A DNA stretch of 64,000 bases from Lasiosphaeria ovina (lineage: Eukaryota > Ascomycota > Sordariomycetes > Sordariales > Lasiosphaeriaceae), in NCBI GenBank assembly GCA_033439765.1, contig JAULSN010000005.1:868001-932000 (forward strand), written 5' to 3'. The notes under the pieces are model-generated. The model was not told where the DNA came from. It searched no databases and saw nothing but the letters and a program-made list of their open reading frames with translations. A program made the position numbers and the translations under genes. Of this stretch, positions 1-55,694 are shown piece after piece (positions within the stretch are counted from its first letter, which is position 1; each line of letters opens with the position of its first letter).

Positions 1-3000
1 CTGTGGCTGGAACCCCATCACGGCTCTCGCATTTAGAATAAACTGGCGCCCCGCAACCGGACCATACGTGAGCATGATCTGGTTCTTTTGCACGACTTGA
101 CTCCGCATCGCGGTAAGAATTTCCCTCGATATGCCCGCAGCTGAGGTTGACCTGTCAACCTCCGGGGTGCTTTCTCGATGCTCCATAATCCGGTCGAGCC
201 GGCCAATGTGCTGCAGGGCCGTGTCGTAGTCGAATCCAAACTCGGCCTTGAGATACTCGTTGTTGTGCAAGGCGATTTCTGCGTCTTCCTTCGTCACGAT
301 GATGAGGTTGTTTTCTCTCGGGTTGTTGTTCGGCGAGACATTCGACGATAGATGCTCGTCGCACCTCCTTATGCAATCCTCCCACCTGTTCGCCAGCAAA
401 TCGCGCCTAGTAGAAGCCATCAGGCACGCCACTCGGGCTGTTTCGAGCACGGATTCCGTCACTTCGGATCCTGCATCGACAAACATTCCAGCCGCATAAT
501 CGTCCAGGAGCTTCTGTAGCCCGGTAGCAGCGGATTCATAGTCCCCATCAATAAATCGCAGGTAACCTTTATGGTACCGATCATTCCAGTCCGCGAAGGC
601 ACGGATCTGCTTCGCCGTCTTGACCATCTCGGTCCTTTCTGCCTCCGGAAGGTGCGAGAAATCACCTTTTCTGTCTCCGTCATCGTCTTCATCGTGTCGA
701 CTTGGACTCGTCGAGCGTGAACAGCGCGCGACCATGGAATCAAGCTGTGCGATGGCCGACTCGTAGCGCTCTGCTTGGAACGCTTCCTTGGCCTTTCCGA
801 GGAGATGAAACCAGTGAAAGCGCTCGGTAGATTGCACCCGCTCTTGGAAAAGCCCGTCGTCAAGCCCTTCGACTTCGCTCGCTATCGGGTCGGCCTTGAG
901 CCGTCTCGACATAATCAGCTGTGCGCGAGCTTCTTCGTAATCGTCGGCCACGACGGCGTCTTTCCAGGCCAGAACGGAGGCGTTCCAGTCGCGCTTCCAA
1001 GTCAGGAACTTCTTGTCCCTGGGGAGCTGGTCGGCGTCGATCAGGTACGGACCGAACTCGTGGCTGGCCAGCTCCTCCGTCTCGGCGTGGAGCTCTAATG
1101 CGCTGTCGAGCTGGTTGGAGAGCTCGTATTGCCGGATCTCCAGCTGGATCTGCATGACTTTGATGTAGAAGGCCGTGAATCTCTCGAGGTATTCCGTATC
1201 TCCGGTGTGCTTGATGAGTAGTCTCATGAGTTTCTTCTGCTCTGTGTCGTTGGCCATGACCTCCGTGAAATAATCGCTTCCCCTGCCGTGACGCGCCTCC
1301 ATATCCCACATCTGACTATTGAGCGTCAGTATCTCGGCTGCTCGGGAAGAATCACCTCCCGAGGACTGCAACGTCTCCAGCATTCCGGTGACTGCATCCC
1401 GAGCCTGTACCGACGCTTCCGAGTGGCTCTGTGGGGTGAATGACCTCAGTTGGCGCAAAAATGCCCTCAGTAGGACGCAGTACTCGCGATTCCGCTTTAG
1501 CTCGTCTGTTTTGGACTGGAAGATAGGGTCGTCGTTGCAAATCTGCAGGATGCGGTCGATATGCAGGATGACTTCGTCGAGGTCCAGTTCTTCGAGACCT
1601 TTACGGAGCAGGTCCTGGTGGTGCTCGATGGCGCTCAGCCATTCCCCCGAGTCGAGTGCGCTTTCGAGATCTTGTAGCCGTGCCAGCGGATTCGCATCAT
1701 ACTTCCGCCATGCAGTGGCCATATTGCCCCCTGGCGGCATGGATTGCGGATCTCTATCTATTCCTCTCATCAGGCCGCCTTTCTCGCCTGCCTCTTTGAT
1801 TTGCCTCAAGTTTTGGCTCATGCGGTCGAGTGCTGCCTCCAATTTCGCTGATTCCGCAGCATCCAATTCCCGCGCATTTTGAACAAAGTCAATGAGGCTG
1901 GTCACCATATCTCGGCGCGTGGCGTGGTAAGTTTTTAGCAGCTGGTAAGAATAAATTGTGCCGGGGGTGGCATTTGGTACACTGTGACTAACGGGTTGTC
2001 CTTGTGCCGCTATCCCTTCGTTGGCAGCATCTTTGTCTGCCTCGCTTTGAGAGGTTGCCGGAACCTCCTCTTGTCCTCTGATGACAGCGTCAAGCGCCCG
2101 GCCTGTCGCCTCGTCAACCTCTAGAAAGTCTTCATTAAGTGCTTTCAGAACCTCGGGTCGTCGCTCTCCGTTGATTGCGGCGACGATAAACCTGTTACGA
2201 AGGATATAGCCCTTCTCATAGAGAGAGGCATAACCCTCAAAGGGGCCGTATTTCTCCTCCGAGCTGGCGAGAATATCTTCGGCTAGCTGGTGCAAGTCTT
2301 GATGCGATGTTCGTTGCCCTTCCGAGCTGTCATGGCCAAGCTTCCGTCGAACGCGGATGAGGAACTGTATAGTATGAAGGACAGGCGCCTGTAAATCTGG
2401 GGAGATGGCGTGTCCGCCGTTCAAATCGATAAACTTCCGCAAGAGCTGCTCATAACGATCAGCCGCCATCTTGAACTCTGTCGGCGTTGCAATGACGACG
2501 AAATTGTCGATGAAGGTGCTTAACAGGTGCCAAGGCCAATTGTGAGTGTCCGGGATTGCCAAGGACATATTGACCAGGGTGAGCATGTTGAAGAACATCG
2601 GGGCGTATCTTGGCCGCATGTCTCCCACATCAATACCCCCCTCAAAAGACCTCGAGACTGCAATCCAGTATGGGACGCCTACAGCATTGGAATACCATTC
2701 GTGAAATTCGTGGAGTTCCATGAAAGTCCTGTCTGCAGTCCCGCCAGTGGAATTCCAAGTGATATTGGAGGCCTTGATACTGTTTGTCTTCGATTTGAAG
2801 AACATCAAGACCGCGTTGTCTTCGTCCGTCAAAACTTCTGCTGTCATGCTTCGATCTGTGGCGTCTTTGATTTTCTGCAGGACGTAGCGAATTCTCGGTG
2901 CGACTAGGGAAAGAAGGGGGCTAATCCATTCAATGCTGCATTGTGGACCGCGTCGGACTAAACCTCGATCTACGGCAATCTCGATCGCGTGCGTAGCGGA

Positions 3001-5370
3001 ACGCTCATCGATATCGATTTGGTTGCGAATGACGTCGTCCCAAAGAGAGATCACCACTGGACCTTTGCGCCAAAAGCTGGTGAGAAGGATGAGTGGCGCT
3101 GCGAGGCGGTCTGGAAGGAGGTATAGCAAGTTGGTTATTTGGGTCAAGAGACGGCAGTCCGGGATTTTGTCGAGCTCGTCATCGGGCCCATCAGGAAACG
3201 GCCTCATCCTGTCGCGATGAGCAAAATCAAAAAGGTCTTCCAGCCGGACGTCTGAGAACTTGGCCCACGACAGCACCTCATGTATCGCAGCAGGCATGCC
3301 ATCAAGGAGCGAAACAAGGAGCTCCATTGTGTCGAGATCTGCATGATTCGGGGCCGCCGTGAGTAATCCGCTCCGCCTGATAACATGTTGGACGAGCTCC
3401 ATTCCTGCCGCCAGGTCCAGGGGGCGAAGTTGGATGGGTCGCACATCGTTCCACGTTGAGAAGTTGGGCTTTAGGAAGGAGAGATCATCCCGGCTGCCGG
3501 CCAGAACGATACGATGGTTAGCACTGGGCACGTTGCTGGGCTCAAACAGCCGCTGGAGAATATCGCCAATGTCCTGAGCGTTTTTCTCAGGAAGCGCGCC
3601 TGGACACAAAGGGGGTGGGAGAATCGAAAAGGCGGCGTGCAGGTTGTCCAGAACCAGTAGCACGGTTTGATCTGCCAAGATCTCAACAACGGCTTGTTCA
3701 AGTGATTCGATGTCCCATGATTCAAGTTCTTGGGATTCGAGTGTCCAGAATCGAGCACCTAGTTTTGGGTCCCCTCCGTGTGCCAAAAGCTGACGGAGAA
3801 TGTGTTTCAAGACCGCGCCTGCAGTCTGCAGTTCGGCCGAGTCAAAATCCAAGTATACAACGGCACTTGTGAAGAAAGTCTCCCGCCACAAGGTGCAGCC
3901 GAATTGGAGGAGGGCGGTTTTTCCCACACCGGCCGGGCCGTGCAAATACACCCGGCCATGATGTGCGATCGCTTTTTCAAGGCGAAGGAGATCGAACTCG
4001 CGGCCGAATACCTGCGAGGGACCGTCACCATCAATGTGGGCGGGCGAAATCTTAGGGTAGCAGGACGCGTCTTGCTCGGTGGGTTTGTCATTCTCATGCT
4101 GCACGACTTGTATGTCTACGCCGGACGAGTAAGTGACCGGAATAAACCAATCCGTGACAGAAACATCCAAGCCAAATCTCGCATGGCGAGTGGGAGATTC
4201 GCGCGAGGCGACGCGGGCTGTGGCGGCAGCTTGCCAGAACGGCTGTCCCAGGACCAGTAACGAGTGGTAGAAGGACCCTAAGAAGATCTCGGCAGCGTGG
4301 CTCGAGACCTTGAACGACATGGCGAGGACATTGTAGACTCCGTGGCGGTAAAACACCTTGGCAATATTTGCGTCGTCTCCGGCGTTTGCTCGAGCTGATT
4401 CGCATGCGTTTAGTACTGCGATCTCGACCTGGTGTGTCTGCAGCAGACGTCCCACCCTGTCAGCATCCACGGCTACCTTTCTATTCTCCTGGGGGTGGTC
4501 GAAGTATAGGTATGCCGCTTTTGTCTTGGTTCCCTTTCGCATCTTGACGGCACCGTGCATGTCAAAGTGAACAATAGCATAGTATCCGGTGCCGAGTCGA
4601 TCCCTGGTTGACTCCAGGTGCTCTTCTAAGGCGGTAAAAGTGCCCGGGCGAACAATTTCGAGGCGAAGTTGAACAGGACTGTTGATCTCCTTGAGGTGAC
4701 TCCTGATGCGCGATAGGATGCCGGAGGACACGAACGGGCTGATGTCTCGGTACGAGGCGGATCCCTCGCTCAGGTCCCGGGCAACCACCATCAAGACATT
4801 GACGGTTTGGAAATCGGCCGCGCTTGGCCACGTGTGGACTCGAATGGGCACTCCTGGCTCCTTCGCAACTTGGGGATCACCATGTTCAAGGAGCCTCCGA
4901 AGGCGAATGTCGATCTCAGAAACGCCCTCGGGATCCCAATTCTTCCCATCTTCCAGAAGCTCCCACCAAAGCTGATGAACGGTGCTGTCCGCGGAGACAG
5001 TACCTTCGGATACCTCGATCAGTACCGACTTCTTCCCGCCGCCGGTGACGCGGGTTTCAACCGTCTTGCGTAGTTCCAGCTGGGAAATAATGCTCCTGGG
5101 GTATGAAGCAACTAGCGCCGCCGCCTTCTCTGCACGAGTGACGGAGAAAGGTGATTGCTGAGCGTAACCCTGAAGATACCAAGCACACTCGGATTTTTCG
5201 ACTGGTGTTAAGGGATCTCGGAGAGTAAAAGACTCGGGTAGGCGCTCGGCGTCGATGTCGATAGAAACGGCCCAGATAGGTTGGCCGAGGTTTGGCGAAG
5301 CTGTCAACGCCGGCTCTGCGTGAATGGCGACCCGGAGCGGCGCTGTTGTAGAACCTTCGTGGTGGTTCAT
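1..5370 (-). CDS. CHAT protease - NTPase (NLR-like) - helical repeat protein, 3' end beyond the window
   Basis: One uninterrupted frame of about 1790 codons starts at the ATG ending at 5370 and is still open at base 1, so the C-terminus is missing. No other ATG occurs in this frame up to 5700. Residues about 185-390 form a CHAT (caspase-like peptidase) domain: the catalytic His is H272 in HFDMHG and the Cys is C323 in LNACESA, each after a hydrophobic strand. A P-loop NTPase follows, with GPAGVGKT (K484) and a Walker-B-like LLVLDNL (D575), in the style of NB-ARC/NACHT STAND proteins. From about residue 900 to the edge the protein is helical with loosely TPR-like units. CHAT-STAND-repeat proteins are typical fungal NLR-like sensors; here the protease would be the effector released by sensing. 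The gene is divergent from a gasdermin-like gene, its likely substrate (inference). Motifs are seen directly; function is inferred from the family. Confidence 0.88.
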   Translation of the reverse strand, partial: MNHHEGSTTAPLRVAIHAEPALTASPNLGQPIWAVSIDIDAERLPESFTLRDPLTPVEKSECAWYLQGYAQQSPFSVTRAEKAAALVASYPRSIISQLELRKTVETRVTGGGKKSVLIEVSEGTVSADSTVHQLWWELLEDGKNWDPEGVSEIDIRLRRLLEHGDPQVAKEPGVPIRVHTWPSAADFQTVNVLMVVARDLSEGSASYRDISPFVSSGILSRIRSHLKEINSPVQLRLEIVRPGTFTALEEHLESTRDRLGTGYYAIVHFDMHGAVKMRKGTKTKAAYLYFDHPQENRKVAVDADRVGRLLQTHQVEIAVLNACESARANAGDDANIAKVFYRHGVYNVLAMSFKVSSHAAEIFLGSFYHSLLVLGQPFWQAAATARVASRESPTRHARFGLDVSVTDWFIPVTYSSGVDIQVVQHENDKPTEQDASCYPKISPAHIDGDGPSQVFGREFDLLRLEKAIAHHGRVYLHGPAGVGKTALLQFGCTLWRETFFTSAVVYLDFDSAELQTAGAVLKHILRQLLAHGGDPKLGARFWTLESQELESWDIESLEQAVVEILADQTVLLVLDNLHAAFSILPPPLCPGALPEKNAQDIGDILQRLFEPSNVPSANHRIVLAGSRDDLSFLKPNFSTWNDVRPIQLRPLDLAAGMELVQHVIRRSGLLTAAPNHADLDTMELLVSLLDGMPAAIHEVLSWAKFSDVRLEDLFDFAHRDRMRPFPDGPDDELDKIPDCRLLTQITNLLYLLPDRLAAPLILLTSFWRKGPVVISLWDDVIRNQIDIDERSATHAIEIAVDRGLVRRGPQCSIEWISPLLSLVAPRIRYVLQKIKDATDRSMTAEVLTDEDNAVLMFFKSKTNSIKASNITWNSTGGTADRTFMELHEFHEWYSNAVGVPYWIAVSRSFEGGIDVGDMRPRYAPMFFNMLTLVNMSLAIPDTHNWPWHLLSTFIDNFVVIATPTEFKMAADRYEQLLRKFIDLNGGHAISPDLQAPVLHTIQFLIRVRRKLGHDSSEGQRTSHQDLHQLAEDILASSEEKYGPFEGYASLYEKGYILRNRFIVAAINGERRPEVLKALNEDFLEVDEATGRALDAVIRGQEEVPATSQSEADKDAANEGIAAQGQPVSHSVPNATPGTIYSYQLLKTYHATRRDMVTSLIDFVQNARELDAAESAKLEAALDRMSQNLRQIKEAGEKGGLMRGIDRDPQSMPPGGNMATAWRKYDANPLARLQDLESALDSGEWLSAIEHHQDLLRKGLEELDLDEVILHIDRILQICNDDPIFQSKTDELKRNREYCVLLRAFLRQLRSFTPQSHSEASVQARDAVTGMLETLQSSGGDSSRAAEILTLNSQMWDMEARHGRGSDYFTEVMANDTEQKKLMRLLIKHTGDTEYLERFTAFYIKVMQIQLEIRQYELSNQLDSALELHAETEELASHEFGPYLIDADQLPRDKKFLTWKRDWNASVLAWKDAVVADDYEEARAQLIMSRRLKADPIASEVEGLDDGLFQERVQSTERFHWFHLLGKAKEAFQAERYESAIAQLDSMVARCSRSTSPSRHDEDDDGDRKGDFSHLPEAERTEMVKTAKQIRAFADWNDRYHKGYLRFIDGDYESAATGLQKLLDDYAAGMFVDAGSEVTESVLETARVACLMASTRRDLLANRWEDCIRRCDEHLSSNVSPNNNPRENNLIIVTKEDAEIALHNNEYLKAEFGFDYDTALQHIGRLDRIMEHRESTPEVDRSTSAAGISREILTAMRSQVVQKNQIMLTYGPVAGRQFILNARAVMGFQPQ

Positions 5371-5688
5371 TTTGGTCTCCGGATATAGTGCTCTGAATCC
5401 TGCGAATGCTGAAGCTACGTCGGTAATGGGGACCCAACTGATCGTCTCGAAGTCGGAAGAAAGACGCCGCTGAGCACGGATCCACGACGCACGTTGCGCG
5501 ATATTCCGTCTGGAATGTTCCCCAACGACGGATATCAGCTGATGCTCTGACGACGAGGATGGTTTTGGTCTAGTGGCGTGCCACCTGCTGCACTTGAGTC
5601 CAATCACAATGTTCGAAGCACCGTGCTCGTTTTGAACCCCTCTTTCGCAGCAAACCTTCACCCCATCTCGCCCTTTCTTGCTCACGAG
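5371..5688. promoter_or_regulatory. Shared divergent upstream region of the CHAT-NLR and gasdermin-like genes
   Basis: These 318 bases separate the two opposing start codons and must hold both promoters if the starts are right. Both frames stay open through part of it, so a longer N-terminus for either protein using an unseen upstream exon cannot be excluded. No convincing TATA box was seen. Head-to-head packing would favour co-expression of protease and substrate. Confidence 0.5.
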
Positions 5689-6561
5689 ATGATGGAGCAG
5701 CAGCGCCGGTACTTCCTCCTCAGCGAGCCATGCTCGGCCGCCGAGATCCCAAAGATGATGTGCAGGGTGGTGGCAAACAAGTATCTTCCGCTCCAACGAT
5801 ACGCGCCAAAAGAGCCGTTGGGCGGCGATGTGGAGCCAAGTCACAACACGAACCAAGTCATCCCTGACATTCTACCCCCAGCTTCCAAGTCGGCGAGTCA
5901 GGCCGATTTTATGCGCAATGCGAGAGATGCGAGCTTGAAGGCGTCGCTGATGGCTCTCTTCGGCATCGGCGCGGGCCGGGGCGATGACGCGACGGTGAAG
6001 CTCGACTCGAAAGAAGTCAAGCGCTATACGCTCGCGAACCCGAAGGAGTATTTTGAGAAACTGATGCGGAACGAACTCTACGCTCGAGACGTGAACCAGA
6101 TCCTGGACGACTGCGACGGTCGAAAGGCATACCTAGTGACGGGGTTTTTGACGACCAACGATGCGCTCTGGACTTTTTCATCTTCGGTGTCGTCCACGAA
6201 AGAGTTCAATGTCACGATTCCAGTGGCTGAGGTCTTAGGGGTTCCGGTTCCTATCAGCGGTCTTGATCCCGAGCTTAGCACCACTATCTCTCGATCCCGA
6301 GAACGGAGCCGTCAGATGCGGGTCCTCGAGGAGGAAATTTTTGCCGTTGCCTACTCGGTAATTCGAAGCCGTGGGACCGGCTGGATCAAGAGAGGAGCTC
6401 CGACGGCGGTTCTGACAGGTCCTGTCCGTGTAAAGGCTCGGCATTTGGCGTTTGGAGACGACAGTGGCGAGGAAGTGGACGATGAGGATTCCGTTGACGG
6501 TCTTGAGCTTATAGATGAGGATGAAGAAGGGCTAGATGATGCTAGAGGGGTCGAGTTTTGA
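5689..6561 (+). CDS. Gasdermin-like pore-forming protein (candidate)
   Basis: This is a single-exon frame of 290 codons from the ATG at 5689 (a second ATG follows directly; the frame is open upstream to 5578 but only with GTG). Features that recall fungal and bacterial gasdermins are the size (known fungal members are roughly 240-290 aa), a conserved-looking strand KAYLVTGFLT (residues 146-155) preceded by an amphipathic stretch ending in NPKEYFEKLM, a Ser-rich hairpin-like segment (163-170), and a final amphipathic strand EEIFAVAYSVIRSR (225-238). Residues 256-290 are extremely acidic. In known systems the N-terminal part oligomerises into membrane pores after proteolysis removes a short C-terminal inhibitory piece; the acidic tail is the natural candidate here. 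The neighbouring CHAT protease supports the call by context. No signal peptide or membrane segment is evident. It could instead be an unrelated lineage-specific protein; the family call is by eye. Confidence 0.6.
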   Translation: MMEQQRRYFLLSEPCSAAEIPKMMCRVVANKYLPLQRYAPKEPLGGDVEPSHNTNQVIPDILPPASKSASQADFMRNARDASLKASLMALFGIGAGRGDDATVKLDSKEVKRYTLANPKEYFEKLMRNELYARDVNQILDDCDGRKAYLVTGFLTTNDALWTFSSSVSSTKEFNVTIPVAEVLGVPVPISGLDPELSTTISRSRERSRQMRVLEEEIFAVAYSVIRSRGTGWIKRGAPTAVLTGPVRVKARHLAFGDDSGEEVDDEDSVDGLELIDEDEEGLDDARGVEF

Positions 6562-8358: not shown

Positions 8359-9542
8359 ATGTCCACCAAACTCGGCTTTCTAGATTATGATGATTCAGAA
8401 CTTGAGACGATTCGGAATTTTATGACGAAACCGACATCATTCGTATTGAATCATTAGCTCCCCTTCACCTCGCCGCCTGGAGAGGCCTCGACGACGTTGT
8501 CGAGCGGCTGCTAAGCTGCGGGGCAAGCGTTGATGTGTTTGCAGGCGCGCCCTATGGAAAGCTCACTTTCCTCCTTCTAGCCATAGTGAAGGGAAACATT
8601 TCAACTGCGACCTTGCTGCTCGCCAATGGCGCCAGCCCGAACTTACTACACGAGGACAACCCCTTTTCGACGACCCTCCACCTCGTCTGCATTCTGGGTC
8701 ACACAGACCTTGTCAAGCCGCTAATGGCCACAGCTAGTGTTCAAGCAGACCCTTCAAAGCTGCTGGAGTGCTACGCTTGGTGGGGCGTTTCAGACGAACC
8801 GGCCATTCTCAAACTCCTCGTCGAAGAGGGTGCGGGATTTTATAATGGGTTGGTTGACCGCTTGCGCTCTAGGCAAAAATATCAGTCTCTATTGGCGCTC
8901 CTGCACACGAAAGAGTACCGAAACACAATAACCTCTCAAGGCCAGGGCCCTGCAATAGCGAGACAATTTCTTCGTTCAGTAAACCTATCAGAACTAGATA
9001 CTGAGATCGCCGACCAGATTATCCGCCAGCTGTTTGACCTTTCCATTGACACAGACCTGTGTGCGGACCCAGACTTCACATTGGAGCCCCTATTATCGCC
9101 ACTCGACTTTCCAGATATGCTAAAGCTGCTGCCGATCTTCCTGGAACGCGGAATGGATGTCAACCGAGGCACAAATATCAGGACCGGGTATCTGTCCGGA
9201 GAAGATTTACCCGACTCCTATCCCGGTGGAAGCCTTTTGTACCAAGCAAGCACCTACACAAAATATCGATACAAAGAAGACTCTGCGGCCCAGCTCGGGG
9301 TCGTCCGTCTGTTGCTTCAGCACGGTGCGCACATTGATGCGCAAACCAAGGGGAATTGTCTTTCCATATCTGATTACGAACACTATGACGACAAAAAAGA
9401 AGTGGAATAGCGTTTCAAGCTGCTCAAAGTGCTGCTAGATCATTGCCACCAAACCCCCCAGAGCCAGCGTGGAGAAGACATCAGAACATTTTTGAGCCAA
9501 GTGTCACGGCTTACCGCTGATCTGGGTATTGACACGATGTAG
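8359..9542 (+). pseudogene. Ankyrin-repeat protein, broken by a frameshift and a TAG stop
   Basis: A start at 8359 opens a frame reading MSTKLGFLDYDD that hits a stop at 8455. The next frame (-1 shift near 8400) continues without a break to 9407 and carries ankyrin repeats: LAPLHLAAWRGLDDVVERLL, a second unit ending LLLANGASPNLL, a degenerate third (LHLVCILGHTDLV) and a C-terminal one (LGVVRLLLQHGAHIDAQ). A TAG at 9408-9410 stops it, but the same frame then reads RFKLLKVLLDHC and on to a natural-looking stop at 9540-9542. CAG to TAG would explain the break and is the favoured RIP-type change, but that is inference. An intron near 8400 cannot be fully excluded. Ankyrin proteins of this type are common in fungal accessory regions; the partner is unknown. 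Confidence 0.7.
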
Positions 9543-26982: not shown

Positions 26983-27075
26983 GTTGAAGCTATTCCCGGC
27001 TTCAACTGCCCAAAGTAACCGCATGTAAAAGTAAACATACAAAATCCTTCCTTCCTTTCCGTGCCCTGAGGGCAT

Positions 27076-27810
27076 TCACAACTCCCTAGGCAAATCCAAA
27101 TGCCCAACCGGGGTTCCTTCCTCTTGCCTTCTAGCCACCAACTGCCGTGATACGTCCTGTAGGTTCATCTGATGCACGAACTCCGTGAAGGCGTTGTTTT
27201 GTAGTGCCTTCGTCAGGCCGTTAGCGATCATTTCTGCGCTCTTCGTGTACACTGCCTTTATATGCCCAAGCCTGTATTCCTGCCGCAGCCAGTGGTTGTG
27301 AATATCAATATGCCGAAGGTTCGTCTTCAACTGGGAGATCTCTTCTGTTAATAACCGAATAGTTATGCGGTTGTTATATTCGACGGTGATGCGGTGGTCC
27401 TTAAGGTTGACGTGCAGCTCCTTCAGTAGCCTGCTGACATATAGGGCTTCCTTTGTGGCCTGCGAGAGAGCAAGCAACTCCGCCTCGGTGGTTGAAGTCG
27501 TTACGGTGGCCTGTTTATTCGCCCTCCAGCCGATTATGCCCCTAAAAAGCTTTATGGCGTAGGCTTGTGAGCTCTTCCGGTCTACCGAGTTGTCCCCGAA
27601 GGAAGCGTTACTGGCCACCCTGAAGTTATCGTCGCCTCCGAACTGTAGGGCTAGATGACTGGTGCGAAGTAGGTAGCCGAGGACCCGGTTAGCCGCCTTA
27701 TGGTGCTCCGGGCCGGGGTTGGTCGTGAAGCGAGAGAGCCGGGAGATGGCGAAAGCCACGTCCGGGCGAGTGATGACGGCGGTATATATGATGGAGCCGA
27801 CCTTCCGCAT
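27076..27810 (-). pseudogene. Copia RNase H and end of reverse transcriptase
   Basis: This 244-codon open frame holds GSIIYTAVITRPDVAFAIS (the end of the RT thumb) followed by the RNase H part with SQAYAIKLFRG, WRANKQATVTTSTTEAELLA and LRHIDIHNHWLRQE, all standard copia landmarks. The frame is unbroken although the upstream part of the same polyprotein is destroyed, so it is a fragment. Confidence 0.85.
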
Positions 27811-28071
27811 ATACCGTAGGATGTCGGCCTTCTTCGCGAGAGCTTCATAGGGTAATAGCTCCTCCCTCGCTATAGGCGTGCTGGTGGGCGGTGTAGGTGA
27901 TATGTCGGTAAGGGTACCTATTTTGGTAATATATAAAGACTATAATAACCACAGGCGCCGCTTGGCCCTGTTACGGAGGATCTCAATACCTAGGAACTAC
28001 TGTAAATTATCCCCACCCGTAAGCTGGAAGCGGGCCTTGAGCTTCTCGATGACTTCGAGAGCTTCCTTCCT

Positions 28072-28296
28072 CTATTGCTCCCTAAAGGCGAGGACGATGT
28101 TATCCATATAGAAGAAAATGATCACGCCGTTGTTGGTGAAGGTATACGGTTCGTAAGGGACGGGGCTATAGCCTAGGGTCTTGAGTGCCCCGGAGAGTGC
28201 CCTCTGCCAAAGAAGTGGTAATCTCCTGAGTCCATATAGAGCCTTATTAAGCCTTAAAACGGTGCCCGGCTTCTTGTGCCCCGGTGGTATGCGCAT
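28072..28296 (-). pseudogene. Copia reverse transcriptase core fragment
   Basis: The fragment has NKALYGLRRLPLLW and FYMDNIVLAF. The catalytic YxDD box reads YMDN, so the second catalytic Asp is lost by a G-to-A type change. Stops lie on both sides. The enzyme cannot be active. Confidence 0.8.
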
Positions 28297-28830
28297 ATAA
28301 ACCTCCTCGTCCAGGGAGGCATTTACGAAGGTATTGACGGCGTTATACTATAGGAGCTCAAGGTCGAAGCGTACAGCTATCGCCATAATCGTGCGGAAGG
28401 ACCGGCCGGCTAGGGTTGTAGCGTAATTACTTTCCGAGAGGTTCTTCGGCTATTAATCTCCCCGGATAACTAGTCGGGCCTTATATTTGATAAACCTTCC
28501 GTATTTATCGAACTTATAGACGTATACCCACCTATAGTCTAGGACCTTAATACCTTTTAGGCCTCGTTATAGGACCTCTACCTACGAACGTATCTCTATA
28601 TAACTCTATAGATATGCCCTCTCTACGTCCTCGAAGAGGTTCCCCATAGGGTGGTCCTTCAAGTCCCCGTAGTGACCCGGTGGGTCCGGGAGGTCCCGGC
28701 GGTATATAGACAACGGGGTCTTCAGCAACCGTTCGACCTATACCCTCGTAAGGGTCTTCCTTCCTAAGGTCCCTACCCTAGAAGATAATATGCCTATATA
28801 GAAAGACCCATTCTAATACTCCTAAATACT

Positions 28831-28936
28831 AAGCTTGGCTACCCGGGTTTTCCCCGGATTAGCCCCCGGCCCGTATTCTACCGTTATACTGAGCTTGGCT
28901 ACCCGGGTTTCCCCAAGGTCGGCCCCCGGCCCGTAT
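28831..28936. repeat. 60-bp period tandem duplication inside the retroelement
   Basis: AGCTTGGCTACCCGGGTTT, and later GCCCCCGGCCCGTAT, occur twice at a 60-base spacing in the linker between integrase and reverse transcriptase. Some differences between the copies fit later mutation. Confidence 0.65.
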
Positions 28937-29784
28937 AATATAATCGCCCCGGCTAGTATAGCTGTAGGCGGCGACTATAGTAGTATAGGGAGCGACCCGC
29001 TGCCCTTCCCTCCTACCGTATAGCTTCCGTATGGCTCAGGGACCTCCCTATACGCCACGATCTTATCCTCTATAACGCCGTCGTCATCCTCTAGTATATT
29101 AGTAATATCCCTAATATCTTCCTAGTCCCCAGGGGTGGCTACTACTTCCTCAATATCAGGTTCCCTAACCGTAAGGGCCTCAAGGTGGTTCGCGAGGGCT
29201 ATAGGGTCCATTTCCCGGACGTCTTACGCCAGGGTTTCCAGCTTACCGTCAAATATAGTATTCTCGTCGAAGATGACGTCCCGGGTGACGATAACTATAT
29301 TCTTTAAAGGCACCTACACCCTATAGATATTGGTCGCTATATAGCCGATAAGGTAGCCGATCCACGCCTTAGGCTCAAAACGCTTGAGGCGTTCTTCCTT
29401 ATTTTGGGCCCTATCGGTCATCGCGTATACCTTATAGCCAAAGACCCGCAAGTACCCTGAGTACGGAAGAGTATAGCCGTTGAAGAAGGAATACCAGGCC
29501 TGATAAGGAGTCTTCTAGTCATTCTGAGCGCGAGGCTGCCTATTGAGTAGGTAGATAGCCGTTCGAGAGATCTCCCGCCATAATTTATTCGGGAATACGG
29601 CTCCTAAAGCGAGTGTAAGGGCTTTCTACTTAACTAACGCCCCCGCCCTCTCGGCGGTACCGTTCTATCCCTATATACGGGGCGCCGAGGGCTTCTAGAC
29701 TAGGCCATGCCTCCTAAAGAAGTCCGTAAACTCTACTAACTTGAGCTCGTTATCTGACTCGATAACCTTCGGTACGACTTTGTG

Positions 29785-30574
29785 TTAAACCCTTAACTCC
29801 TTGAAGAAGGCTTCCAAAATAGCAATAAGGGTCACGTACTTCCGGTCGGTAGTATAAAAATCCCAGCTTATACCTATATAGCGGTCGGTCACTAGCATAA
29901 GAGAGTCATACTTCTTATCGTCAGGCTCCCAGTTATGAAAGTCAATCGCAAAGCAGTCCCCGGGCCGTTGAGGCTTGTCTTTTGGCTCTCGTTTGACCTG
30001 TCGCTTTATTTTGGCCCGCGCGTATACGCTACACTCGACTATTTTGATGCCCTTGATACGCACCCCCTGAGCTGTGTTGACGAGTCTTTCCAGGGCGCCG
30101 GGGCCCGGGTGGCCCATACGCAGGTGCCAGATTTCGGCGCTCACGCTCCGGGGCTTCCTTTTGGTGTAGGAATTGAACCGGTTCCTTCTCGTGAAGAAGG
30201 CGGCCCTGCTCAGGTCTTCCGGAATATGCTCAATGACGAATTGGTCGTGCCGGGCCTGCAGCACGCATACTACCGATTGATCCGTCATGCGGCGTAGGTA
30301 GGTGGGGTCCCCGCTGTTATCCCAGTGCATGCCTCTCTCATGTAGGCGCCGCAGTGACACCAGGTTGCATGCGATACCTTCACACAGGGCCACATTGTAC
30401 AGCCTCAGGACCTTCTTTCCTCCGAATGTATTGCTGACTTGCAGGTCCACCTCGCCGTATGCAGTGATAGGGATCTTGTGGTCCCCAGCCCACACGAATT
30501 CCCCCGCGAGGGCGTGCCGAATGTTGAGGAAGCGGCTGACTTGGTTGAAGATGTGTATTGTAGAGCCTGAGTCC
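29785..30574 (-). pseudogene. Copia protease and N-terminal integrase fragment
   Basis: It starts near the protease active site (LDSGSTIHIF, just after a TGA where Trp is usual), continues through IWHLRMGHPG (the His pair of the integrase zinc domain) and ECSVYARAKIKRQ, where the second Cys of the CxxC pair is Tyr, to the first integrase catalytic Asp in AIDFHNWEP. A stop at 29785 ends it before the rest of the integrase core. Confidence 0.82.
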
Positions 30575-30704
30575 AGTCATCCGAGCCCTCGAGGGCGACT
30601 GTCTTCTCTTTTGTTGTCATGTGGTTTTCCGGGCGCGGTGCGCGTGGACTGCTCTGTCGGTATAGAGGCTTCAATAGATGTTTGTTGTTGTATTGGGGAA
30701 TGCA

Positions 30705-30721
30705 GCTTCCGGGCTCATAAC
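30705..30721 (-). other. Primer-binding site matching the initiator tRNA-Met anticodon arm
   Basis: The plus strand reads gcttccGGGCTCATAAC up to the LTR border. GGGCTCATAAC is the anticodon arm (anticodon CAT) of eukaryotic initiator tRNA-Met. A primer made from a cleaved half of this tRNA is known for Drosophila copia and some fungal copia elements. Confidence 0.65.
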
Positions 30722-30938
30722 TTTCAGAAGCCAAAGCATGCAAAAGCAGTCAAAAAGAGGGTATTCCAAGTGTGTGTATTCCGTTGTGTAGAAGGAAGAA
30801 AAGCTCTTCGCCCTGCAGGCCGGGGAACAGTGTAGAGCCTGTGGAAAAGGCGGTCTAATTAGGTGCCCTGTGCGCACCCTGCCCGGCCCCTGCCCGGACC
30901 CTCAAGACCATGCCAAATCCAGTATGGCCTTTCTAACA
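30722..30938 (-). repeat. LTR (5' copy in element orientation)
   Basis: 217 bases, identical by eye to the copy at 26756-26972. The GGCGT target duplication follows it at 30939. Confidence 0.93.
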
Positions 30939-33900
30939 GGCGTCTTACTCGGTGCGCTCGCAACGTTGCGAGTCTTGGCAGCGGATTTTCTAGGCTTCAT
31001 GGAGCTGGTCTTTCGGCGATGTCTAACCCACATGGTTACCCAATGTGTTGTCTTTATGACCTCGTATTTGAAGACTAGTGGGTCGAGGAGACTCTAAATA
31101 GTAAAGGAAAGAGAGGCGTGGGGGAGGGGGGAGGGGGTTGTAAGCTGTTATAGGCCTCTATCTGCTTATCTTCCGAGCCTCGTCAACCCTAAAAAGTGAG
31201 GCGGTATGCAGACGTGAATACGTGTTTGGTCAAAAATAAACCCTCAGGAAAGGCAGGGCGGGGTGCGTGCGGGGGTTGCATCCGATGCCAGTCAAGGGCG
31301 CTACTCTCCAGCCTTGGGCCTAGATCTCTCAATTATCGTGCAGACTGCCCTCCCTCCCCAGTTACGGATTGCTTGAATCCCAAATTGGGCATCAGTACAT
31401 GCTGCACCCGGCTTTAACCATCCTGTCTGTGCCTATGATTAGGCAGCAGCCCCGAAATCGGGTCAGCAGCCAGAAGTTAGGATCAGTAGTTCAGAACGGG
31501 GTCCAAAACTGTTTCATGACTTCTCTTTCCTTTCTGCTACATCTTGCACACGTAATACACTCGATCTAATTATATGCAAAAAGCGACCGATTTCTGGCTC
31601 CTCCAGTTTCTCTGTTGGAATGACAAGGTCATTCGTACTAGTCACTATGGTAACCGTTGCGAAAGGATGGGGGGTTTTGGTGGTTATATTCTTCTCTGTT
31701 CACTATGTAAAAGGATCACGAACTACGGGGACAGGACGCGGGTGGCTTTGGCAAAGCTCTGTGGTCACGTGTTGGTAGCGTGTGGCCCGTGCGCCCTAAG
31801 GTCACGTGAAGAACGCGTTTGCCCCGCGCGCTGACAGTTCCCCACTGTTTTCCCTAGTAACTAATCATAGCTCTGCAGCTGCACGAGCCTGAGTGGTCGG
31901 TGATTCCTACATTCTCAAACGTCAAATCTAATCTCAATCGCACGTACTGTAGTAAGCCCTCACACCCCAATTAAATTATCATGAATTACGATCCCAAACA
32001 TTCGCGTCACTACCTCGTCTTGCATCGCGAACCCTCTACTGTCGGAGGAAAGATAGTGTTCTAGAGCAGTTTAGACTGCCTATTATCAAAGGAGAAAAGC
32101 GGCGCGATTGACCTCTCACAAAACCATCGGAGCCATTCAGTTTTACGATTTTGGATCTCCTTCAAGACTTGTTGATCATCACTGGAAAGCATCAAGCTAA
32201 ACTAATTTCTCTTACAGAGGTGGGTTCTGTGTTTGCGCAGGCGCAGGCGGGATACGTAACTCTTGGGGCGTAAAATTAGCTGCCGGATCGGTCGGGGATA
32301 AGGCCGGCCGCAACCCGGGGCGGGAACAACGTAGGCTAAGGGGATGCGAGCTTGGCCAGGCCATTCAAGCTGCCAATGTGTTTCCTCGGAAAATAGCCAT
32401 CATGCAATTTTCCTGTTCGGGGCCGCGAGTTTGCTGGCCGGAGTTCAGAGCTGAGCTACGTAAAGGCCACGAATTCGCGAGGGCAGAACAAGCGACTCGA
32501 GGGACAATGGAAGCTCAGGAAGGAAAATGAGCGTGGGAAGAGGAAGCCGAGGCCACATACCATCAGAAACAGGGCAGTCAGGCTTATAGATGTTGTTTTC
32601 ACCGCCCGATCGAGCAGCCACCAGCATGATTGAGCTCGGCAGCATCTGGAAAAGCGCATGAAAACCTTCGCTTGGAGCAATGGCCGCTGAGGGACCATCT
32701 TGATCGTGTCACTGGGATGAGCAACGCTGCTCCCAGGCGCAAGCAGGATTGGTAAAGGTGGGTGATCACGCCAGTTATGTTCGTAAACGTGCATGTGGTC
32801 CCGTAAGTCTTCTTCACAGTGCGGTGTGCACCTGTACGTTAGTATCGAAGGCCCAGCTGTGACTGTGACTGACCTGATAGTCACGGTCTTTACCAACGGG
32901 AATTGCTGTGGAGATTCTGCGAGTTTGGATACTAAAACGTGTTGGAATGTGTTGGGAAGGCAGTCATTCCTGGTGCATTATATGTAGTTGTCTGTTGTAG
33001 GGGATCATGAAAGTAGAAAGGAGAGAATCACTACAGCTAGTAGGAGATATGTGTTGGAAAAGGTGCTTGATACTTGAGATGGTGTCATGCTGTGAAGGTA
33101 GTACTACCCGTCAATCAATTCTTGCGATATAATTCAAAGCATCAATCTTCAATGACACGTCTAACTTTGCTGGGCCTGGTGCGGCTGTGCACCGCTTCAG
33201 GCCACTGGGATCATGACTTTTCAAGGCTAGCCAGACTGATTAAGGTACCCATTGGGTGGTCTCGGCCAAAGCAACGCCTGCACCTCCTACACTACCACCA
33301 CGCAGCATACATTGCGTCCTGTCCTGATGTATAGCATACACACAGGAGCAGACCTATAATGGTGCTCAAGGGGTAGTTCTATCCACTCATTACGCTCTGA
33401 CCTGCCTCAACGCCGTCCACCACCCGCAGTCGAAGACCCCAGAGATACACAAGTGCTTCATCTATTATCCTCAACTGGACGCCCTTGTGAGACTCCACCC
33501 CCAACAACGTTGTTCTTCTTCACCATGCCGACAGCATTCCATGGGTCACGTTGACCCCCAAGAAGCCAGTTCTCCATAGAGCTGTTACCTTTGAACTTGT
33601 CCTTTCCTTGACTCAACGGTTCTGGGTGAGATCGGGTGGCGGGGACCCAGATCTCAGGGGCATTGGGGGATTGGGGCTCCATTTAGGGATAAATTGCAGT
33701 AAACTGGTGGGGGGTGTTAGAATAGGTTGAATAGTAGATGTCGGATGCTGTGGCGCTTTGAGGGGAAAGACTTGCTCTGTGAAAGTGAAGAACTCTGCGT
33801 CTTGGATCCGGATGCGCGAGGTAATGTTCTCCTGGGCTGAAAAGGGGCTTGCAATGGACTGCAAATGAGAGGGCGTCTGGATTTCAGTGTTTCTGTTGTT

Positions 33901-49084: not shown

Positions 49085-51301
49085 TTAAAAGGCATGTCCT
49101 TGCTCGTCGGGGTAGCTGCTCTTTCGGGCGTGTGACGGATACCTGCCGAGCCCTGCCTTGCCCTGTGGCACGGTGCCCGCGTACACCACGTCCTCTTCGT
49201 AGGGGTTCGCCTCGGGGTACGAGCTGGGATCGGGGTATGCGCCCTCGCGGAACGGGTTTTCGGGGTGCGAGTCTTCGGGGTGCGAGTTTTCGGGATAGGG
49301 GTTCGCTTCCTGGCCCATGTCCTCGCCATACCGCTGTCCGCCCTCGCCCCGCGTCTTCTCGGGCCCCATCATGCCGCACAGGGACCGGATGACGCCCGAG
49401 AGGACAATGATGACGTATACGAGGAGGAGACCCAGCGAGATAAGCAGTTCTTGGACGATGCCGTTCCGGAGAGCGGTGACGACTTTGTCCACGGCCCCAC
49501 TAAGTTCATCCGTAGTGACTGTCGCCGGCGTCGCAAGAAAACTCTTCAAATCGCTGTCGCCATTGACACTATCATTGGCGCCCTGCGAAAATGTGTCGTT
49601 CTGGAACAGGGGGAGCGTGATGTGCGCGCTGTCGTGCACCCACGTGAGGCCCTTCTGGACGGTTTCGACCTTCCTGGTGATCAGGCAGTTGACAATGTCG
49701 CGTGCGGGCTGCTCCAGGGGCGTGCCGTGGAAGATTGTCGTGATGCCCTTGCTGATTTCGTCGTCGAAGGCGTTCAGTGTGTTGTTGACGGCCGTGGTCG
49801 CGTTCAGGACCCAGCCGAACAGGTCGTCGTTGATGTCGTTCTGCGTCTTGACCATGACGCGGTTGGCGTCGACAGCCCAGTCCGTCGACACGTCCTGCAG
49901 CGTGTTCACGACGTCGCCGGCGAAGTCGCCAACCTGGCTGGCCAGCGCGGGGGCCTCCTTCTCGATCAGCCGCAGCACGATCCACTGGCAGAAGCACGAC
50001 AGGAGCCCGGCCAGGGCCAGAGAGAGAACGAAGAGGGCGGGCAGAGACGTCGCGTACGCCATGGCCCAGCGAGCCCAGAGCTTCCTCCTGCCCTGCAGCC
50101 TGGAGCTGAGCTTGATGCCCAAGGTGGCGGTGAAGGGCCTCGAGGCGCTGTAGATGATGTCCATGGGGTCGTAGCCGTGCTCGACGAAGAACTTTGCACG
50201 CTTCCTCTCTCTGCGCCACCGCCGAACCTCAATCGCGCCCATGGCAACCATGGCCAGGATGGCCAAGATCGGAATCGCGACGAAGAAGGCTATCTTTGCC
50301 TTGTTGACAAGCTCAAACAGGGTGTTGAAGAAGTCGTTGAGAAATGAGTTGTCGGAGCAGAAGGAAAGGGCTTTCTTCTCGGCAACCGGAAAAACGGTTC
50401 TATCGAATTGGTAGCTGGAGAAAGACGCGTTGACCATCTGCTTTACCAGGTTGAAGGGGATCCCAATGGCGTTCTTGGTGATGTTCTCGGCCTGGTCGAA
50501 GTTGGGAATTGTCTTGTTGAGGCTCGTGATTCCCTCCACGGCTTTGGTACCGTCGATATGGATATTTTTCAGGTCGTTGAGATGTGAAGTAATGTCAATT
50601 TTAGGTGGGCTGATATTTGAGCCGAAAAAGCCGGCCACACCAGAGACTCCATTCGAGGCGCTGTTGATGACGTCTTGGACGGATGCGATATCCTTGGTGA
50701 TGCCGTTTGTGATGGACGAGATCGCACTGTTCATGACGTCGGTGGCCTCCTGAACCACTGCCGTTGCCAGTTCGAGGCCGCCGTGGATCAGGGCGCTAGC
50801 CAAGCAAACGTAGGTCCCCACGTACATGTTGATGATGAAGAAAATCAGCTCCTGGACGCCCGTCAGGATCATCATGATGACCTGTGCCATGGCCGAGACG
50901 GCATGGTTCACGCCAGAGGCCGCGAGGTTGTTGACGCCGACCGACAGGTAGTGCGGCATCGACGCCACAGCACTGCCAACATCCTCAACCTTGGAGCAAG
51001 CGGCCAAGGACTGGGCCTTGGCGTTGTCCAGATTGTCGTTGAGGCCCCCGGTGAGGATCAGCATGCGGATCAGAACCAGCACCAGCAGGACAGTCCACCG
51101 ATTAAACCACACTTGCGACAGCCTCGCTCGGAGGCCAAGGTAGGGTGTGACGGCGGGGTCGGTGTCCGGGTAGGGCGGGGGTGGGAGTCGCTGCTTCTCG
51201 GACGGGCCGTCGATGTCGACCATCTCCCAGGCGTTGGTGTTGAGCTGCGAGGGCTGCGAGGGCTGCGCCCTCTTGTAGTCGTGCATGTAGTTGTCGTCCA
51301 T
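49085..51301 (-). CDS. prm1: Plasma membrane fusion protein PRM1
   Basis: A single-exon frame of 738 codons starts at the ATG ending at 51301. PRM1 is a multi-span membrane protein that helps plasma membranes merge during mating and hyphal fusion. The sequence has the typical plan: a short cytosolic N-terminus (Pro-rich, PPPPYPDTDP), a first membrane span after WFNRWTVLLVLVLIRMLIL, further spans at IIMM..ELIFFIINMYVGTYV, AFFVAIPILAILAMVAMGAI, LPALFVLSLALAGLLSCFC and LLISLGLLLVYVIIVLSGVI, and two long extracellular loops with N-glycosylation sites. The C-terminal cytosolic tail is Pro/Glu/Tyr-rich with repeats of the EDSHPENP type. Length fits the family. Its presence beside incompatibility-type genes is coincidental as far as the sequence shows. 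Confidence 0.92.
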   Translation of the reverse strand: MDDNYMHDYKRAQPSQPSQLNTNAWEMVDIDGPSEKQRLPPPPYPDTDPAVTPYLGLRARLSQVWFNRWTVLLVLVLIRMLILTGGLNDNLDNAKAQSLAACSKVEDVGSAVASMPHYLSVGVNNLAASGVNHAVSAMAQVIMMILTGVQELIFFIINMYVGTYVCLASALIHGGLELATAVVQEATDVMNSAISSITNGITKDIASVQDVINSASNGVSGVAGFFGSNISPPKIDITSHLNDLKNIHIDGTKAVEGITSLNKTIPNFDQAENITKNAIGIPFNLVKQMVNASFSSYQFDRTVFPVAEKKALSFCSDNSFLNDFFNTLFELVNKAKIAFFVAIPILAILAMVAMGAIEVRRWRRERKRAKFFVEHGYDPMDIIYSASRPFTATLGIKLSSRLQGRRKLWARWAMAYATSLPALFVLSLALAGLLSCFCQWIVLRLIEKEAPALASQVGDFAGDVVNTLQDVSTDWAVDANRVMVKTQNDINDDLFGWVLNATTAVNNTLNAFDDEISKGITTIFHGTPLEQPARDIVNCLITRKVETVQKGLTWVHDSAHITLPLFQNDTFSQGANDSVNGDSDLKSFLATPATVTTDELSGAVDKVVTALRNGIVQELLISLGLLLVYVIIVLSGVIRSLCGMMGPEKTRGEGGQRYGEDMGQEANPYPENSHPEDSHPENPFREGAYPDPSSYPEANPYEEDVVYAGTVPQGKAGLGRYPSHARKSSYPDEQGHAF

Positions 51302-53259: not shown

Positions 53260-55694
53260 CTAGACGACCCGCACAACACGCACCTCGGCCGCATCAAACA
53301 GCTCGACCCAGTCGTCCGTCTCGCAGAAGCCAATACGCTGGTAGTTACCGTCCTCCACGGACACGGGCGCAAGGGCCAGGAAGCACTGCGGCGCGACTTC
53401 TCCCGGCTCAGCCTTGCGGCCGCCGAACAAGACACACAGGACGCGTTGCAGCAGGCGGACCGTCTGCGGGTCCTCTCCGGGGCAGTCGGCGGCGAACGGG
53501 ATCTGCGCGACGGTAGTGCCGCCGTCGGAGTCTATCGAGAGCTGGAGCGTGTTGCGCCCGTTCCACGACTGCTTGTCGAGCCTTTTGGCGGATGCCGTTC
53601 TGACCGTAGCCCAGCAGCTCGCCGCTGACAGCGTGATCTGGCCGCCGCCCAGCGGCCTCCCGAAGGGGTTCCCTTGCTCGTAGTTGCAGAATGTGCCCGC
53701 GTCGTCAATCGCCAGCCGGCGGTCGGCCTGGAACTCGTGCTTCGCGACGTGCTTGTACTTGATGGCGCACGTCGACGCGTACTCGAGCGGGTGGCAGATG
53801 CGCGACATCCACGACCACGTAGGCACGCCGCCGCCAGGGCGCACGACTCTCCTGCTCGGGTGCGGCGCCCACAGCATTGCTCGCGGTAGGTCCCGCGCCC
53901 ACAGCCCCGCCAGATACCTGTCCCCTGTGAGTATCTGGATGCGCTTAGCGATTCCCGCGAGCGCAAACGGCCGGTCTGTCTCGTGGCTTAAGAACAGGAA
54001 CGAGTATTCCTGACAAGCGCGGAGCCAAAAGTCGAAAGGCGCCCGGGAGTCGCCCGGGCCCTCGCACCGTCGGAGAACAGAACTTTTTTGGTCTGCACAA
54101 ATCTGTCTACGGCGTCGGAGCCCCCTGTGACACCCCCACCAGTCTCCAGCCCAGAGCTGGCCTGGGTCGAGTTGATGTCCCTAACGCTGAGGCCGTGCGC
54201 GTTGGTGATGCGCGTGCATTCGCAGTAGCAGCCCGTCCTGCACTCCCACAGCACCTCGGACGCGCCAAAGTGCAGCGTGCGCCGCGAGAGCAGTATCTCC
54301 TGGAACACCCACGCCCTGCTCAGCAACGGCTCCATGGGCGTGTGGAAGTCGAGGTCGCCGTACAGCACCTCGTGGCTCCGGTCGTGCGAGATGCGCGCGA
54401 AGACGGCCCGCCCGTCCACCTCCCCGTCCTTGATCGTCTCCAGCGACGGAACCGCCGAGTAGTCTGCACCGCCACCACCGCCGCCGTCCCCCCTGTCTGC
54501 GGACTTGCGGAGGCGGCGAAACCCCTGCTCGTGTGTCATGTACTGGAAGAGCCCGGCCAGCGCGCTGCGCGTCAACGTCGCGGCGATGTTCAGCGCAGCC
54601 TTGTTGTAGATGTCGGACATGTTGGCCGACTCCTCGACCCAGTCCTCGCCGTCGTCCTGGACGATGCACAGCGAGTCGATCCACACGTAGCGGCAGCCGA
54701 GCGCCCGGACCAGGTTGACCCATCCCGGAACAGCCGCGGCAGCTGCTCCCACTGGATCTGCTCCCGGTGCTGCGCGAGCGTGCCGTGCGTCGTCCGCAGC
54801 AGCAGCGACGCCGTCTTTGGGTTGCCCCAGCAGTGGCTCAGCGTCATGTACGGCGCTGTAGCCGACACTCCTCGTCGGCCGCCGTGTCCACGAGCCTGAC
54901 GCCGCCCTGCACGTCGATGAACCGCCTCGGCAGTGTCGACGGGCCGGCGAAGGACTTTTGGTGGGAGGCGTCGCAGCGCCGCGTCCACGCCGAAGCGAGC
55001 TCGACCACCTGTTCAAGGGTGATGACCGCTGAAACATGTCTTGCAGGGCCAATGGTGTGAGGCGCACTTTTGCGCTCAGTGCTCGTGTCCCCACATTGCT
55101 ATCAGCACTGTCCATCCATCTCCACAGCCGCCCACGGCATCGCGTAAAGTAAATAGATACCCGGGCAGATGATACAACTCGATCCGCGCCGTCGAGTCGC
55201 GGATAGTCAGCCCGTAGATGAACGAGAGGCCAGGTACGTCTTCGTAGACCAGCGTCCTGAACAGGAGCAGGCTGCACCCAGGCTGCTGCACGAGGCAGAG
55301 CGCACGCCTCGAGCGCCGGCCATCCTCGGTAGAAGCTTTGTACGAGCTGTACACGTCGGGGCTGTCGTCCCAGAAGAAGCCCATGGCGCGGCCGAGGATG
55401 GAGCAGAACACGCAGCCGCCAGCAGCTGCGCCCATGACGTTATCGAACTAGACCAGCCGGTACCTGGGTGGCGCGGTGCCGTCTCCCCTTGGATCCGGGC
55501 TGAGATGTGGCCCGAAGCTGCTGTAGCTCGTGTAGTCGAGATCCAGACATACCTGACACGCCGAGCGAGCTTGTGGGTGCCAAGGAGCGGGGCTGCTGTC
55601 CGCTGGTGCCGTATCCACAGGCGGCGAAGCATTGACCGTCACGGTGTTGCCCGACGGCCGTGAAAATATCCTCTCCCCCTGCTGCAGGACTCAT
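53260..55694 (-). pseudogene. HET-domain protein, inactivated by a stop and several frameshifts
   Basis: The likely start is the ATG ending at 55694. Pieces in order are SACQVCLDLDYTSYSSF and GCVFCSILGRAMGF (the N-terminal Cys pairs), an intron (GTATCT donor near 55160), FIDVQGGVRLVDTA, then the HET core TLSHCWGNPKT, LGCRYVWIDSLCIVQDDGED and MSDIYNKAALNIAA, then SRAWVFQEILLSRRTLHFG and the C-terminal half (ARDLPRAMLWAPHPSRR, TWSWMSRICHP). The frame is broken by TAG at 55448-55450 and by shifts near 55640, 54870, 54718 and 54040. HET proteins trigger fungal incompatibility cell death. Each coding piece is well preserved, so inactivation is recent or the assembly has errors. Confidence 0.82.

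Follow-up and report, generated by a model that had tools for sequence, protein, structure and literature searches.

A stretch of 64,000 nucleotides from Lasiosphaeria ovina (the window; assembly GCA_033439765.1, contig JAULSN010000005.1, here C28:868001-932000, in a genome of 51.7 Mb in 32 contigs) carries two divergent genes that very probably form a fungal gasdermin module. In such a module, a CHAT protease activated by its sensor would release the gasdermin from its C-terminal tail and kill the cell. The evidence consists of the gasdermin-like fold of the small protein, the CHAT and NTPase homology, conserved catalytic residues and helical C-terminal half of the large protein, the linkage of the two genes, and the tail. 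From these we infer a ligand, oligomerisation, cleavage at a cut site, a pore, and cell death. The pair was proposed in an original prediction, whose background claims about RCD-1, HET-Q1, and CHAT neighbours agree with two reviews (PMC12881547; PMC10197012); these and the other papers cited here by accession are drawn on from excerpts. In fungi, more than 80% of gasdermin genes sit in clusters with protease genes, and about 19% have a CHAT gene within 10 kb; some of the adjacent CHAT proteins are NOD-like receptors (NLRs) or NLR-like (PMC12881547; PMC10197012). "Dozens" of CHAT-carrying NLRs or NLR-like proteins are described beside fungal gasdermin genes (PMC9815663; PMC10197012). One CHAT/gasdermin pair, the tetratricopeptide repeat (TPR)-CHAT/gasdermin pair of Podospora anserina, was tested (Clave et al., 2022, as reported in PMC12881547). 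The features are listed in Table 1.

The large gene reads from its first ATG to a stop codon at contig position C28:867989, outside the window. Its start is supported by the six best homologues (P0054-P0059), which begin at most five residues from this ATG in alignment A2, although the argument is limited to these six and MAFFT may drag first residues into the ATG column. A2 holds 21 CHAT-protein sequences, with P0074 (E 9.3e-9) left out. Counted from this ATG, H272 and C323 lie exactly where the original prediction had placed the catalytic residues of a CHAT domain. C323 is invariant across A2, H272 is a histidine in at least 90% of its sequences, and both are kept in 13 of 13 CHAT proteins paired with a gasdermin. 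By homology, the region is a CHAT domain with a His/Cys dyad and a predicted proteolytic role. The P-loop NTPase claimed to be fused to it was recovered by AAA_16 (E 2.5e-8) and NPHP3_N (E 5.3e-8), both above their cut-offs. The NACHT match (E 1.2e-4; 22.3 of 26.7 bits) fell below its cut-off, and NACHT or NB-ARC calls were seen in some CHAT-protein homologues. Walker A residue K484 is present in all 13 paired proteins. Profile matches identify a STAND-type NTPase with a Walker A motif, as found in NLR/STAND proteins. NCBIfam gave nothing above a cut-off for the large protein, and PADLOC gave weak matches to BovA (E 2.4e-4) and SAVED_CHAT (E 0.012).

Helical repeats had also been proposed for the large protein. 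The helical part of this claim held, and no Pfam repeat family matched the region. Residues 880-1790 were predicted by AlphaFold2 to be helical, bar a stray residue or two, with a mean predicted local distance difference test score (pLDDT) of 83.6 and a predicted template modelling score (pTM) of 0.66. This prediction used 41 of the 111 CHAT homologues (alignment A3), in which the first residues of the window piece stand apart from the remainder. Foldseek returned no match to the model at E ≤ 0.001 (best E 1.6e-3, low TM-scores). The weak matches were headed by Ctr9 and Ski3, TPR proteins of the Paf1 and Ski complexes, and also included human separase. In the model, residues 880-1790 form a helical solenoid, presumably the sensor.

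The small gene, the 290-residue head-to-head partner of the original prediction, was found on the plus strand as claimed. Homologues of its product number 52, with aligned identities of 31-51%; hence, the gene represents a real family and not a chance frame. All ten homologues with an organism shown come from ascomycete fungi; among those named, Lojkania enalia has the closest (50% identity). Pfam, NCBIfam, and PADLOC searches with the protein gave no match. Sequence and profile searches of the PDB gave no gasdermin chain, the best weak non-gasdermin matches having E-values of 0.057 and 0.52. No relative of the subfamily was confirmed in one scan of viral contigs or in one scan of bacterial and archaeal genome contigs. 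Structure prediction, which had been set as the check on gasdermin identity, bore the proposal out. With the predicted structure as query, the first 26 Foldseek matches and the first 22 VIA matches were gasdermins, with fungal RCD-1 first and with low TM-scores. The modelled fold is therefore gasdermin-like by consistent ranking rather than close superposition.

Linkage of the pair in relatives was assessed by searching homologues of each protein separately and matching them on the exact size of the longest contig listed. Thirteen of the 52 gasdermin homologues, on 12 distinct contig sizes, matched one of the 111 CHAT homologues; the fraction was 13 of 30 when contigs were restricted to those of at least 6.5 kb. 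The chance expectation was a mean of 0.09 matches, with a maximum of 2 in 5000 trials in which CHAT contig sizes were jittered by up to 10%. In 5 of the 12 cases both partners are named, each time from a single species: Lojkania enalia, Patellaria atrata, Eremomyces bilateralis, Aspergillus wentii, and Geoglossum umbratile. Consecutive locus tags show that the two genes are neighbours in A. wentii and Geoglossum. Seven shared contigs are short (6595, 9975, 12811, 14092, 15907, 15940, and 16440 bases), and their size bounds the gene distance. On the other three matched scaffolds the partners co-occur at a spacing that is not bounded. The 17 of 30 homologues without a match, including those named from Melanomma, Hyaloscypha, Coniochaeta, Aspergillus pseudotamarii, and Podospora conica, may be unpaired, or the length and word filters may have missed their partners. 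Pairwise distances of gasdermins and CHAT proteins across 13 pairs, the window included, were correlated (r = 0.77; 0 of 20000 permutations), although species history alone would explain part of this correlation. The nearest neighbour was the same pair for both proteins in 6 of the 13. Judged from contig sizes and distances, the pairing is conserved and not due to chance, and the window locus is a protease-clustered fungal gasdermin locus, with 318 bp between its two ATGs against the 10 kb used to define such loci. The CHAT partner in G. umbratile (P0106) additionally has a fungal-type protein kinase domain towards its C-terminus (Pkinase_fungal, E 1.4e-71).

Conserved adjacency, the other check set by the original prediction, was also seen within the L. 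ovina genome. The window gasdermin as a query found only itself; a second gasdermin was recovered on contig C23 with two diverged members as queries. It is very diverged from that of the window, matches no Pfam family, and has no useful PDB match; its hhalign probability against the window gasdermin family (A1) is 96.4 (E 1.4e-9). Its divergent partner, with 330 bp between the first ATGs, comprises 3.6 kb of TPR and CHAT frames (CHAT, E 3.1e-24; TPR_10, E 8e-10). These form two overlapping frames with an intron or a break in between. A third locus, on C4, holds gasdermin pieces (E 6e-6, 3.9e-4, and 0.015 in a search of a small set), whose interruptions may be introns, and CHAT remnants (E 7.9e-13 and 5.8e-8) approximately 2 kb away. 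Repeat-induced point mutation (RIP) as the cause of decay at C4 was unsupported (TpA/ApT 0.57). All three gasdermin loci found in the genome adjoin CHAT genes or remnants. In a survey of 10-kb stretches around 11 of 12 CHAT places, the A1 profile gave a gasdermin above the inclusion threshold at 2 of the 11, the window and C23:5264401. The weak match at C27:4561232 and the left flank of the window lay outside this run, and the C4 locus is not among the 12 places.

Two other accounts would deny that the genes form a gasdermin pair. One is that a CHAT-NLR gene happens to adjoin a gene for an unrelated membrane or structural protein. CHAT genes are not rare in this genome, with 13 matches at 12 places, and to that extent a coincidence is easier to obtain. 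The partners nevertheless share contigs of 12 other sizes by exact match, their divergences correlate, the pair recurs in the same genome, and the small protein has a gasdermin-like predicted fold; we therefore regard chance adjacency as extremely improbable. The other account is that the small protein belongs to a different membrane-attack family, the cholesterol-dependent cytolysins (CDCs) or MACPF proteins. All 22 better-ranked structural matches are gasdermin entries, the fungal ones being closest, and a length of 290 residues suits a gasdermin, whereas most of the CDC/MACPF chains listed exceed 450 residues. This identity is scarcely more credible than chance adjacency.

The C-terminal end of the gasdermin is conserved in three parts. 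The commonest residues of the linker are P-K-R-A-K-A-x-H-L-A-F-G, each non-variable one occurring in 25-45 of about 52 sequences. The window linker reads P-V-R-V-K-A-R-H-L-A-F-G, with V at 246 and 248. Of the 53 members, 51 have at least 15 residues from position 253 onwards, and in all 51 acidic residues outnumber basic ones there, as claimed for the tail of the window protein. The mean D/E content is 33% in the tail and 10% in the core. An aromatic residue lies within the last ten positions of 48 of the 51 tails (21.7 ± 3.5 when shuffled). A terminal aromatic-hydrophobic motif, chosen after inspection so that its excess is descriptive, occurs in 47 of 51 tails (12.4 ± 3.0 in shuffles) and in 24 of 27 tails of members kept at below 60% identity. 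The tail is placed with low confidence in the predicted gasdermin model. From the sequence, we infer that it is an inhibitory or docking element cut at the linker. A more specific arrangement is conceivable, and we put it forward tentatively. In CHAT-linked fungal gasdermins, the tail would act as a control device of its own kind, in which a basic linker serves recognition or cleavage, an acidic run acts as a tether, and a terminal aromatic-hydrophobic strand plugs the pore-forming domain until it is removed or captured by the CHAT sensor. In the same scheme, one CHAT sensor would serve two diverged gasdermins at some loci. Two gasdermin homologues that are 33% identical, P0011 and P0041, and the CHAT homologue P0082 all list a contig of 9975 bases. 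The P0082 gene possibly serves both gasdermins. If true, one CHAT sensor with two gasdermins would parallel the two-component RCD-1 pore, with a protease as the gate.

We propose that the helical solenoid recognises a signal and that the P-loop NTPase then switches and oligomerises the large protein. The oligomerised sensor would activate its N-terminal CHAT cysteine protease (H272/C323). The active protease would cut the gasdermin between the folded domain and the acidic tail, most likely in or beside the linker. Without its tail, the pore-forming domain would insert into membranes and bring death to the hyphal compartment, in defence or in allorecognition. Sensing by the repeat region, activation of the protease, gasdermin cleavage, and cell death were also the steps of the original prediction.

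The last two steps of this scheme can be read otherwise. The pair may be functional with the tail as a docking or recruitment motif, so that the CHAT-NLR would bind or scaffold the gasdermin to activate it, without cutting. The terminal motif is kept in 47 of 51 tails despite the low model confidence there, as expected of a docking peptide, and RCD-1 is activated by partner binding without cleavage (PMC12881547; PMC12547243). A scaffold would not need the catalytic histidine and cysteine that all 13 paired proteins retain, and activation by a protease is what is reported for the only fungal CHAT/gasdermin pair tested (PMC12881547); hence, activation by docking is considered improbable. A different question is the trigger. 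The locus could be a het locus that kills upon an encounter of alleles from fused strains, and not one for defence against other organisms; this is compatible with the cleavage mechanism proposed above. The gasdermins HET-Q1 and RCD-1 are allorecognition genes (PMC12881547; PMC10197012), and in Aspergillus fumigatus one of the hetB incompatibility alleles encodes a CHAT-domain protein (PMC11138114); an allorecognition role is therefore possible. Two HET-domain genes also lie 47-50 kb away in the window. The present evidence, however, comes from one assembly, and incompatibility systems are proposed in a review to derive from broader pre-existing pathways (PMC12881547). We consider an allorecognition locus a plausible minority option.

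Among known systems, the TPR-CHAT pair of P. anserina resembles the window pair in that a gasdermin gene adjoins a gene for a CHAT and helical-repeat protein, with activation of the gasdermin by the protease (reported there, in the excerpts available, and proposed here). The window protease differs in its P-loop NTPase between CHAT and the putative repeats and its length of 1793 residues. The C23 pair, with TPR and CHAT frames and no NTPase family matched, is closer in layout to that of P. anserina. Fungal CHAT-NLRs beside gasdermins have the architecture of CHAT, NTPase, and repeats that the window protein would share, and no difference in kind was found in the excerpts (PMC9815663; PMC10197012). 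Compared with those loci, the window gasdermin belongs to a subfamily without a Pfam family, whose homologues are named "hypothetical" or "uncharacterized" where names are shown. HET-Q1/HET-Q2 of P. anserina is alike in having a gasdermin with a short C-terminal part under the control, proposed for the window pair, of a protease from the same locus (PMC12881547). HET-Q2 is, however, a subtilisin-like serine protease and HET-Q1/HET-Q2 are idiomorphs, whereas the window has a CHAT cysteine protease and both genes are adjacent in one assembly. RCD-1 of Neurospora crassa (8jyz, 8jyx, and 8jyy) needs two alleles and no cleavage (PMC12881547; PMC12547243), and no sequence similarity to the window gasdermin was detected by profile. 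The bacterial gasdermins with caspase-like proteases (7n50, 7n51, and 8sl0) differ in that the single bacterial and archaeal scan confirmed no relative of the window subfamily. In a literature search that left most subscription journals outside, the only C-terminal tail found was the short one of a bacterial gasdermin, in a review excerpt. The locus type, comprising gasdermin/CHAT pairs and CHAT-NLRs, is already described in fungi, and the window locus is a further, well-supported case. The new element might be the three-part tail of the subfamily (basic linker, acidic run, and terminal aromatic-hydrophobic motif) and the possible two-gasdermin loci.

Inflammasome-driven pyroptosis has a fungal counterpart in which a single protein is both sensor and caspase-like protease; the locus adds to it a gasdermin subfamily of at least 52 homologues outside Pfam. 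The conserved tail offers a concrete place to seek the cut and the inhibitory contact. The ligands detected by such sensors are a major open question in one review (PMC12881547). As read, both genes lack introns, and they lie side by side; the system could therefore be transferred to laboratory yeast or a filamentous fungus to ask what the sensors detect.

Table 1. Features of the gasdermin/CHAT locus, related loci in the genome, and other genes. Positions are those of the window unless a contig is given.
Feature	Position	Strand	Details
CHAT-NTPase-helical-solenoid protein (CHAT-NLR)	1..5370	-	1793 residues, intronless; three last codons and stop left of window
All-helical alpha-solenoid	1..2733	-	residues 880-1790; presumed sensor; AlphaFold2
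P-loop NTPase core (AAA_16/NPHP3_N/NACHT-like)	3631..4014	-	residues 453-580
Walker A GPAGVGKT	3916-3939	-	starts at residue 478
CHAT (caspase-like) protease domain	4183..4971	-	residues 134-396; Pfam PF12770, E 5.9e-16, above cut-off
Catalytic Cys323 codon	4402..4404	-	motif LNACES
Catalytic His272 codon	4555..4557	-	motif HFDMHG
Intergenic region between the two divergent ATGs	5371..5688		318 bp; shared promoter region by position
Gasdermin	5689..6561	+	290 residues; homologue family and predicted fold
Pore-forming gasdermin fold	5689..6438	+	residues 1-250
Conserved linker	6421..6456	+	residues 245-256; candidate cleavage or recognition region
Acidic C-terminal tail	6445..6558	+	residues 253-290, conserved aromatic-hydrophobic end; candidate inhibitory tail
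Second head-to-head gasdermin/TPR-CHAT pair	C23:5264395-5269237	gasdermin +, TPR/CHAT -	profile and Pfam
Second gasdermin	C23:5268374-5269234	+	287 residues; E 0.0015 and 3.2e-4 with two diverged members as queries
Third, interrupted gasdermin and CHAT remnants	C4:518435-521545	both -	stops in frame
HET-domain gene	53988-55277	-	E 1.4e-17
HET-domain gene	56946-59309	+	E 3.2e-33

Other features of the window were recorded as well. An ankyrin-repeat frame lies at 8535-9410 (plus strand), 2 kb downstream of the gasdermin. At 49085-51301 (minus strand), a 738-residue protein with hydrophobic stretches had no Pfam match at 0.001; it shows a tentative resemblance to the fusion protein PRM1. Frames at approximately 27000-31000 (minus strand) resemble, by eye, pieces of a copia-type retroelement, and the TpA/ApT ratio of 1.32 there suggests RIP.
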